This document shows positions 60,570-63,452 of a stretch of 64,000 bases of DNA, one piece after another. The number at the start of each line of letters is the position of its first letter. The stretch's first letter is position 1. The notes below the pieces were generated by a model that made no database searches, was not told where the DNA came from, and worked only from the letters and a program-made list of their open reading frames with translations. Origin of the DNA: Lachnospiraceae bacterium (lineage in GTDB: Bacteria > Bacillota > Clostridia > Lachnospirales > Lachnospiraceae); contig JAQUVX010000001.1 of assembly GCA_028693165.1 (NCBI GenBank), forward strand, positions 124,001-188,000. Direction: 5' to 3'. Position numbers and translations under genes: made by a program.

Positions 60570-60631
60570 TGTAATACTCTTTGTTACATTCAAGAGTCTA
60601 TCATCTTTTTGTTGTAATGTCAATAGTTACA
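60570..60631 (-). promoter_or_regulatory. promoter with two Rrf2-type operators
   Basis: Promoter on the minus strand: TTGACA (60623-60618), 17 bases, TAGACT (60600-60595). Operator copies TGTAAT-N7-GTTACA at 60613-60631 (over the -35) and 60570-60588 (after the -10). A third copy overlaps the -35 of the Rrf2 gene itself. Confidence 0.72.
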
Positions 60632-61175: not shown

Positions 61176-61212
61176 AGTATAATTTCTTTTTGGTGTAAAG
61201 TCAATGGTTACA
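61176..61212 (-). promoter_or_regulatory. autoregulated promoter of the Rrf2 gene
   Basis: On the minus strand TTGACT (61204-61199), 17 bases, TATACT (61181-61176). The operator TGTAAA-N7-GTTACA (61194-61212) covers the -35 exactly as at the PNPOx promoter. Confidence 0.75.
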
Positions 61213-61226
61213 ACAATTAAGAAGGT

Positions 61227-62411
61227 TTAATCTTGTTCCACCCGCAAAAATTTCCGGTAAGTCAAATCAATCATAAATGCCCCTAACGGCGCCGTGATCA
61301 GGATCGCCAGCACCGACACGGTCAGAACGACCGTTCCGCAGGAAAGTCCCATCGCCAACGGCAGTCCGCCTATCGCTGCCTGCACGGTGGCCTTCGGCGT
61401 ATATGCAATCATACAAAACAGCCTCTCTTTGGGATTCAATTTCGTTCCAAGCAGGCAGAAGCCCACTCCGGCCATGCGGAACAGCAACACCCCAAATATC
61501 AGAATCACGGCTGAAACGCCCGCACTGCGGACATTGTTGAGATCAACCGTTGCCCCAACCAGCACAAACAGCATGACTTCTGACATCACCCACAGTTTGT
61601 TGAATTTGAAGGTTAATCTTGCTGCAACCGCCTCTCGCGTTCTCTGCAAAGAGATTCCCATACACATCACGGCGATCAGCGAGGCAAACGGTATCACACC
61701 CGCAAGCCGATCCTCGCACGTAACCATAATAAACGCCGCGGATAATAAAATGATTACCTTAACGGTATCTCTCATATGAATCCGCTCAAAATATTTCGCG
61801 AGCAGATACCCAATCAGGAACCCGACGATCATTCCAACCAGGATCGAAACCGGGATGTTCAGAAAACTCTTTATCGATATCGAATTTCCCTGTGCCAATC
61901 CCGTAAACGTAGAAAACAGAACGATGACAAACACATCATCCACCGACGCTCCCGCCAGGATCATCTGTGGAATGGACTGCTTTGTGCCATATGTTTCATC
62001 CATCAGCTTTATCATCTTCGGTACAATAACCGCCGGTGACACCGCGCCCACCACTGCGCCCATGATTGCCGCATCCAGTCGCGATATCCCAAGCAAAGCA
62101 GGCGCCAGAAGAATCATTCCCGCAATCTCAAAACACGCAGGCACAAAGCACATCAGCACTGCCGGTCTTCCAGCCCGTTTTAAATCTGCAATATCCAAAG
62201 ATAGCCCCGCGCGAATCAAAATAATAATCAGCGCAATCCGTCTTAACTCCGCTGAAATGTTCAGAACCGACGAATCAATCAGATTCAGTAAATGCGGCCC
62301 CAGAATCACCCCTGTCAGAATCATCCCGAATAAGCCCGGAACCTTCATTTTTTTGCACACCCACGCAAACATCATTCCAAATAACATCATAAAAGCAATA
62401 CTGATCAGCAT
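61227..62411 (-). CDS. cation/proton antiporter (CPA family, Kef/NhaP-like)
   Basis: 394 residues with about twelve to thirteen membrane segments. The ion-binding region shows the acidic pair in LAGASVDDVFVIVLF. No C-terminal TrkA-N domain is present. It is preceded by a fluoride riboswitch, so its physiological job is most likely fluoride stress (export of fluoride-linked protons or cations, or ion balance during fluoride exposure). GGAGG lies 9 bases before the ATG. The promoter overlaps the end of the upstream dehydrogenase gene. Confidence 0.88.
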   Translation of the reverse strand: MLISIAFMMLFGMMFAWVCKKMKVPGLFGMILTGVILGPHLLNLIDSSVLNISAELRRIALIIILIRAGLSLDIADLKRAGRPAVLMCFVPACFEIAGMILLAPALLGISRLDAAIMGAVVGAVSPAVIVPKMIKLMDETYGTKQSIPQMILAGASVDDVFVIVLFSTFTGLAQGNSISIKSFLNIPVSILVGMIVGFLIGYLLAKYFERIHMRDTVKVIILLSAAFIMVTCEDRLAGVIPFASLIAVMCMGISLQRTREAVAARLTFKFNKLWVMSEVMLFVLVGATVDLNNVRSAGVSAVILIFGVLLFRMAGVGFCLLGTKLNPKERLFCMIAYTPKATVQAAIGGLPLAMGLSCGTVVLTVSVLAILITAPLGAFMIDLTYRKFLRVEQD

Positions 62412-62430
62412 ATCCTGTTCCTCCTTCAGA

Positions 62431-62528
62431 CGCAGAAAAGCTGATGGTTTCTGCGTGAAATTATGCAGAAGTCATCAGCTTATGATAAGCAGTTTAAGAT
62501 TTTCATCTAAGGGAGAACCTCATTCCCG
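62431..62528 (-). promoter_or_regulatory. fluoride riboswitch (crcB motif) with expression platform
   Basis: Read on the minus strand. P1: GGGA/TCCC around loop ATGAGGTTC (62527-62511). An extra small hairpin AGAT-gaaa-ATCT follows. Then AAACT and P2 GCTTAT/ATAAGC, then TGATGACTTCTGC (to 62465). The pseudoknot is GAGGT of the first loop with ACTTC. This order and wording (ATGAGG...CCC, AAACTGC, GCTGATG, CTTCT) match the fluoride aptamer closely. Downstream, AAGCTGATG can instead pair with CATCAGCTT (62446-62438) and a competing hairpin CGCAGAAA/TTTCTGCG (62431-62455) lies just before the GGAGG, a mutually exclusive switch. Confidence 0.85.
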
Positions 62529-62537
62529 TTGCGTTCT

Positions 62538-62565
62538 ATTATACCGGATTGGGGAGAAATTTCAA
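62538..62565 (-). promoter_or_regulatory. promoter of the riboswitch-antiporter unit
   Basis: On the minus strand TTGAAA (62565-62560), 16 bases, TATAAT (62543-62538). Transcription starting near 62531 would include the complete aptamer from its first base pair. Confidence 0.75.
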
Positions 62566-63452
62566 GTGTTTTTCACAACACTTGCGCCGGAAAGCTTCTC
62601 ATAAAATTTCACGATAGAAGCATGATCCTCTTTCTCGCAGCCCTCTGCTCTCAAAAACTGCATGGTTTCCATCAGCTGCGCTGTCAAAGGTGCCGGAGCG
62701 CTGATCGCATGTGCTGCATTCAATGCGTTGGTCAGATCCTTGATGTGCAGCTCGACGCGGAAACCAGGCTTATAATTGCCGTCCAGCATCATCGGGGCCT
62801 TTGCATCCATAACCGTAGAGCCAGCCAGACCGCCACGAATTGCCTGATAAACCAGCTCCGGATCTGTACCTGCCTTTTTCGCAAAGGTCAACGCCTCCGA
62901 CACGGCGGCGATATTGATTGCAACCACCATCTGGTTTGCCAGCTTTGCCACATTGCCGGAGCCAAGTTCCCCCACGTATACCACGGAACCGGCCATCACC
63001 ATCAGCATCTCATAATATTTGTCAAATAATTCTTTCTTACCGCCGCACATGACCGACAGAGTTCCATCGATGGCCTTTGGCTCTCCACCGGATACCGGGC
63101 AATCCATCATATCCATATTCTTCTTTGCCAGTTCCGCGCCGATCGCCTTCGATTCGGTTGGATCGATGGAGCTCATATCGATCACGCAGGTTCCTTCCTT
63201 CGCCCCTTCCACAACGCCGTCTTCGCCGAGAACCGCAGCTCTCACATGCGGAGAGTTCGGAAGCATGGTTATGATCGTATCGCATTCCTGCGCTATTTCC
63301 CTGCCGCTGTTTGCAGCCTTCGCGCCTGCTGCCACAAGCTCTGCTATCGTGTCCTCATGATGGTCAAATACCACCAGCTCATACCCTGCTTTTAACAGAT
63401 TCAAAGACATTGGCCTGCCCATAATTCCCAATCCGATAAATCCTATTTTCAT
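62562..63452 (-). CDS. garR: NAD(P)-dependent 3-hydroxyisobutyrate/tartronate semialdehyde reductase family (GarR type)
   Basis: 296 residues from the ATG at 63452 (AAGGTGG upstream; an in-frame ATG at 63533 precedes the promoter). N-terminal GFIGLGIMGRPMSLNLLKAG cofactor motif, DCPVSGGEPKAIDGTLSVM substrate loop, and the catalytic Lys in GSGNVAKLANQMVVA. Sequence is closest to 2-hydroxy-3-oxopropionate reductase, which makes D-glycerate from tartronate semialdehyde. It is a single gene; no glucarate operon is next to it. Confidence 0.88.
   Translation of the reverse strand: MKIGFIGLGIMGRPMSLNLLKAGYELVVFDHHEDTIAELVAAGAKAANSGREIAQECDTIITMLPNSPHVRAAVLGEDGVVEGAKEGTCVIDMSSIDPTESKAIGAELAKKNMDMMDCPVSGGEPKAIDGTLSVMCGGKKELFDKYYEMLMVMAGSVVYVGELGSGNVAKLANQMVVAINIAAVSEALTFAKKAGTDPELVYQAIRGGLAGSTVMDAKAPMMLDGNYKPGFRVELHIKDLTNALNAAHAISAPAPLTAQLMETMQFLRAEGCEKEDHASIVKFYEKLSGASVVKNT

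Follow-up and report, generated by a model that had tools for sequence, protein, structure and literature searches.

The window (the whole stretch of DNA that was analysed, 64 kb long) carries on its minus strand, from 62565 to 61227, a promoter-like site, a fluoride riboswitch and an antiporter gene. The features are the following:

62538..62565, minus strand: sigma-70-type promoter TTGAAA-16-TATAAT, 11 of 12 consensus matches
62459..62536, minus strand: fluoride riboswitch aptamer (RF01734), 48.7 bits, gathering score 34
62511..62527, minus strand: P1, GGGA 62527-62524 with TCCC 62514-62511 (Rfam alignment and fold)
62468..62521, minus strand: pseudoknot, GAGGT 62521-62517 with ACTTC 62472-62468 (sequence and conserved positions of the Rfam match)
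62497..62508, minus strand: inserted hairpin AGAT-GAAA-ATCT in the interval from P1 to P2 (sequence)
62478..62490, minus strand: P2, 4-5 bp (Rfam alignment and RNAfold)
62438..62481, minus strand: competing hairpin (9 + 6 bp) using the aptamer 3' arm (fold of 62486-62435)
62420..62425, minus strand: Shine-Dalgarno site AGGAGG, 8 bases ahead of the start codon (sequence)
61227..62411, minus strand: NHA2/SLC9B-like antiporter, 394 aa, with D158, D159 and K340 (PF00999, 137.4 bits, cut-off 26.2)

The preliminary description of this DNA had placed a fluoride riboswitch in the antiporter leader, and the covariance-model search bears this out: the RF01734 match (62536-62459) has an E-value of 1.9e-10 over the whole window, is complete (model positions 1-64 of 64 aligned), and is the sole Rfam match within the 64 kb at gathering thresholds. 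It is also the one fluoride riboswitch found in the genome of the window. Models of miRNAs and snoRNAs at the aptamer site scored below their gathering scores and were rejected. The aptamer parts named earlier are all present and in order: P1 with its loop (ATGAGGTTC inside GGGA/TCCC), the insert AGAT-GAAA-ATCT, AAACTGC, P2, TGATGACTTC, and the GAGGT/ACTTC pseudoknot, which includes one G-U pair. Two details need trimming. P2 exists, but the "perfect" pairing GCTTAT/ATAAGC of 6 bp would leave a one-base loop, and 4 pairs (Rfam model) or 5 with a triloop (RNAfold) are realistic. The hairpin inserted between P1 and P2 is real as well, and more ordinary than had been implied. Our survey of 397 genomes of the same family (334 genera) gave 70 riboswitch matches that pass the cut-off, spread over 68 genomes, and 69 of these 70 can form a stem of at least 3 bp in the insert, with differing sequences, although the cut ran into P2 in a few rows and a 3-bp stem can be due to chance. 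The insert was accordingly rejected as a special feature; it is typical of the lineage. When folded alone with RNAfold, the aptamer stretch is no more stable than its own shuffles (z 0.15), so that it is the covariance-model match that speaks for the aptamer, not the folding energy. We regard the assignments of riboswitch and antiporter gene as close to certain.

The promoter-like site, called by consensus match only, ends at 62538, directly ahead of the aptamer; the interval 62300-62900 holds two such sites against a shuffle mean of 0.7. On the other side of the aptamer, the competing hairpin pairs as AAGCUGAUG-AC-UUCUGC...GCAGAA-AC-CAUCAGCUU and cannot coexist with the pseudoknot or the P2 3' strand. 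The 52-base stretch 62486-62435 folds at -20.4 kcal/mol (z -6.7), and none of 200 shuffles was as stable; the refolding of the aptamer 3' arm near the ribosome site that had been proposed is thus possible on paper (hairpin 62481-62438). In the free fold, the P1 3' strand is paired to the Shine-Dalgarno site; enforcing the aptamer raises the mean unpaired probability of that site from 0.36 to 0.62. Immediately 3' of the competing hairpin lies UUUUCUGC, a weak U-tract, and a terminator search called none here. In most relatives the same hairpin is followed by a U-tract, as for an intrinsic terminator: a hairpin-linked U-tract (at least 6 T in 8 bases) occurs in 63 of the 70 family riboswitches over the cut-off, counting two weak picks (L070 and L100), with the window among the seven exceptions. 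This agrees with the overlapping terminators known from a published account of the riboswitch class (PMC2864571). The window riboswitch shares with the crcB motif (RF01734) the full-length model match, the pseudoknot and, as in that account, the arm common to aptamer and competing hairpin, and differs in its weak U-tract and in the P1-P2 insert hairpin, usual in this family. In one other genome (locus L045, G164:C21:141735-141942), tandem fluoride riboswitches of 36.2 and 44.6 bits precede a single antiporter gene, the second being close to the ribosome site and devoid of a hairpin-linked U-tract.

Taken together, the sequence depicts an aptamer behind a promoter-like site, its 3' arm shared with a strong competing hairpin, and an antiporter gene downstream. 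This arrangement points to an ON switch, working via read-through, a freed ribosome site, or both. Fluoride (with Mg2+) would hold the aptamer and block the competing hairpin, and so turn the gene on; mostly, in the relatives, this would happen via read-through, and in the window, with its weak U-tract, possibly via the freed ribosome site. Fluoride induction of the antiporter gene is very likely. One could also suppose that the window riboswitch is decaying and has lost its switching, given the weak U-tract and the fact that, in a tree of 81 antiporters (full-length or nearly, the window's included), the window protein's smallest well-supported clade has six other members, all without a riboswitch. 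The aptamer, at 48.7 bits, nevertheless has P1, P2 and pseudoknot intact, as is the competing hairpin, and the AGCTTTTCTGCG end is common to the window and two other family riboswitches (L086 and L089); we consider decay improbable.

The window protein matches no Pfam family other than PF00999; the same search gave no match to CRCB (PF02537, Fluc) or to CLC (PF00654), and the protein scores far under the cut-offs of the named antiporters in NCBIfam. With a profile of 58 relatives, NHA2/SLC9B2 comes first among solved structures (205 bits, against 61 for MjNhaP1), and it is also first in a fold search with the predicted model (mean pLDDT 85.8), at a TM-score of 0.82 on the query and 28% identity. 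E95, D158, D159, R312 and K340 are invariant in all 58 relatives and align with E215, D278, D279, R432 and K460 of human NHA2, an electroneutral Na+/H+ exchanger (PMC8850199). The ion site is that of a cation exchanger. What sets the window clade apart from NHA2, a CPA2-type exchanger that is otherwise its best solved relative in sequence, fold and ion-site residues, is the fluoride riboswitch, an R or K at position 132 (55 of 58 relatives; Ser in NHA2), and an invariant E278 (Gln in NHA2).

The antiporter gene (62411-61227), earlier described as the only gene behind the riboswitch, has a neighbour: an rrf2-like gene (61137-60700) follows 89 bases downstream on the same strand, so that the two may be co-transcribed. 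A near-palindrome, TGTAAWGTCAATRGTTACA, occurs in two exact copies, at 60613-60631 before a PPOX-like gene (60623-60138) and at 61194-61212 before the rrf2-like gene. Since these are its only two matches in the whole source genome, with up to 2 mismatches allowed, TGTAAWGTCAATRGTTACA is probably the operator of the rrf2-like regulator.

According to a 2024 review, the fluoride exporters of bacteria are of two types, Fluc and CLC-F (PMC11139923). The source genome (94.3% complete, in 42 contigs) gave no match to Fluc (PF02537) in a search that was positive for 10 of 14 control genomes, and neither a CLC-F-type protein nor a second PF00999 protein was found in it. Its one CLC, on contig C16, falls in the lower-scoring CLC group and has GREGA, while all seven riboswitch-linked CLCs aligned have GREGV; as a fluoride exporter it was held unlikely. 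Neither known kind of exporter having been found, the antiporter itself may be the fluoride defence of this organism.

In 60 of the 68 family genomes with a riboswitch, the window's included, the antiporter or what is left of it lies behind the riboswitch; the remaining ones have a CLC-F-type gene (7 genomes) or Fluc (1 genome) in that place. No Fluc or CLC-F-type match was found in any of the 60. With the stricter filters there are 84 family riboswitch matches, of which 14 are below 34 bits and outside the count of 68 genomes. Among the 60 are G131 and G046. At the former's locus (L034), as at L040 (G008), a riboswitch over the cut-off is followed by a C-terminal remnant or fragments of the antiporter, G131 having the remnant only; in the latter (L066, G046:C1), riboswitch and antiporter are separated by a 463-aa ORF that resembles, on visual inspection, a group II intron reverse transcriptase. 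A further genome, G209, has one riboswitch before a CLC-F-type gene and another of 40.0 bits (L060, G209:C91) directly before a gene for a MutS domain V protein (71.1 bits).

Over all 397 genomes, the antiporter was found in 92 (E at most 1e-20), Fluc in 84, and CLC-F-type genes in 21. The 92 include decayed, split or cut copies (G008, G131, G205, G119, G325, G341, G359, G063 and G169 among them), and "CLC-F-type" is defined by a score gap against one riboswitch-linked CLC (at least 319 bits in the 21 genomes, the next being 249). A riboswitch accompanies the antiporter in 61 of the 92, the one count that includes G339, whose riboswitch of 33.9 bits immediately precedes the antiporter; in the other 31 none was seen in the stretches examined, one of these loci (L184, G063) ending at a contig edge with no upstream sequence.

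Antiporter and known exporters nearly exclude each other. The antiporter shares one genome (G365) with Fluc against 19.5 expected (P 3.6e-10), none with CLC-F-type genes against 4.9 (P 0.0033), and one with either against 24.1 (P 3.6e-13), these P values assuming an independence of genomes that holds only in part. The other CLC type, to which the CLC of contig C16 was assigned, served as control and shows nothing of the sort: it shares 39 genomes with the antiporter (39.6 expected) and 36 with Fluc (36.2 expected), with a CLC fragment of G246 counted in, nine genomes excluded because their matches were poorer than about 1e-35, and second copies counted among the matches listed. Restricting the sample by quality (completeness of 90% or more, contamination of 5% or less) leaves no genome with both antiporter and Fluc, against 15.5 expected. 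Four genera (g3, g16, g44 and g45) contain a species with Fluc as well as a different species with the antiporter, the latter as a broken copy in g44. A sample of the class (133 genomes, the source included) has the antiporter in 18 and Fluc in 25, with none shared against 3.4 expected (P 0.018); a single CLC match in it, with 37% identity, reaches E 1e-70 or better. None of the three transporters was found in 202 of the 397 family genomes, among them G172, the one genome of the window's genus that was sampled.

An exporter might of course be present in the source genome and have been missed, either in an unassembled part, since the assembly falls short of completeness, or in the form of its sole CLC. 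Yet no Fluc or CLC-F-type match appears in the other 59 genomes with a riboswitch-linked antiporter either, and the CLC type of contig C16, which lacks the GREGV of the riboswitch-linked CLCs, is distributed independently of both antiporter and Fluc. We hold this explanation to be very improbable.

More serious is the view that the antiporter is a helper only: an ordinary Na+(K+)/H+ exchanger, induced by fluoride, that mends the cytoplasmic pH after HF entry and replaces no exporter. This is how the literature sees Na+/H+ antiporters linked to fluoride riboswitches: the 2024 review ranks them as the next-most common riboswitch-associated genes after the exporters and explains them by pH homeostasis (PMC11139923). 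The ion site of NHA2 type, which does not vary among the 58 relatives, agrees with it, and so does Clostridioides difficile, where, according to a review, a CLC and an NhaP-type antiporter share one fluoride riboswitch (PMC11477304). The likeness of the window unit to this C. difficile unit (CD0656-7; PMC11139923, PMC11477304) is one of gene arrangement, an antiporter under a fluoride riboswitch; the antiporter there follows a CLC gene, whereas for the window antiporter no exporter gene was found. A helper, however, should often accompany an exporter, and antiporter and Fluc or CLC-F-type genes meet in a single genome where 24.1 were expected, and the 60 genomes with a riboswitch-linked antiporter yielded no exporter gene. 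We therefore think this view rather unlikely.

The near-exclusion, together with the lack of an exporter among the genes found in the source genome, suggests that the antiporter substitutes for the known exporters. Our preferred reading, to which we give a probability of about 0.65, is that the antiporter replaces Fluc and CLC-F and that the window's 62565-61227 (minus strand) is a fluoride-induced defence unit. Judging from the co-occurrence, the antiporter alone would do the job that Fluc or CLC-F does in other genomes. Proton-coupled exchange at the conserved DD-Lys site might either expel fluoride or lower the pH gradient that traps it; by weak-acid chemistry, even a cation exchanger could take the place of an exporter if the import of protons lowered this gradient. 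Several findings count against replacement: the NHA2-type ion site; the 202 genomes with none of the three transporters, the window's congener included; the 31 of 92 antiporter genomes without a riboswitch, to which the six relatives in the window protein's smallest well-supported clade belong; the tree of antiporters, where 15 changes of riboswitch state are needed, at least 12 of them by well-supported branches; G365, with antiporter and Fluc; the decayed copies behind intact riboswitches; and the C. difficile pair of CLC and NhaP-type antiporter.

Replacement need not mean export. A tentative proposal, with the odds against it, is that the NHA2-like clade adds a third family to the fluoride exporters of bacteria, working on the CPA fold as a fluoride antiporter coupled to protons. 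The clade would then stand in for Fluc and CLC-F in many family members and would often be marked by a fluoride riboswitch of its own; direct transport of fluoride by the antiporter is possible, though less likely than not. Fluc (CrcB) and CLC-F belong to other protein families than the antiporter. The near-exclusion opens a direct test, namely fluoride tolerance from the antiporter gene alone. Should the gene by itself give tolerance, the result would be either a third exporter family or fluoride resistance without export, and either outcome would sit on a fold known for moving cations.

As to precedent, the reading of the preliminary description, a fluoride riboswitch before a CPA-type antiporter, is upheld by the Rfam match, the promoter, the order of the genes and the recurrence of the unit in 60 genomes of the family. 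It is less unusual than had been implied, being an already published kind (PMC11139923), of which the window unit is a new case. That the antiporter is likely part of the fluoride response finds support, and the near-exclusion with Fluc and CLC-F-type genes goes further. Searching the open-licence literature, mostly without subscription papers and without preprints, we found no account of this near-exclusion; nor did open-licence titles and abstract beginnings yield a proposal of the NHA2-like clade as fluoride exporter, and a report may exist outside them (subscription journals, bioRxiv).

The riboswitch-antiporter unit extends beyond the family. Among the best 80 of 545 confirmed antiporters in named genomes, 58 have a riboswitch at most 250 bases upstream, and 59 loci have one when that of Anaerotignum neopropionicum, 2.2 kb upstream, is counted. 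These best 80 include loci of Bacillota and of Bacteroidales (Parabacteroides and a Rikenellaceae MAG), and two Brachyspira loci with the antiporter and no riboswitch. At two loci (L229 and L232) a gene for a universal stress protein (Usp) adjoins the antiporter; at the second, another fluoride riboswitch follows the Usp gene, with no ORF of at least 100 aa close behind. The link between riboswitch and antiporter looks old, since a family antiporter only 42% identical (L003, G055) stands with the survey's best-scoring riboswitch, at 59.7 bits.
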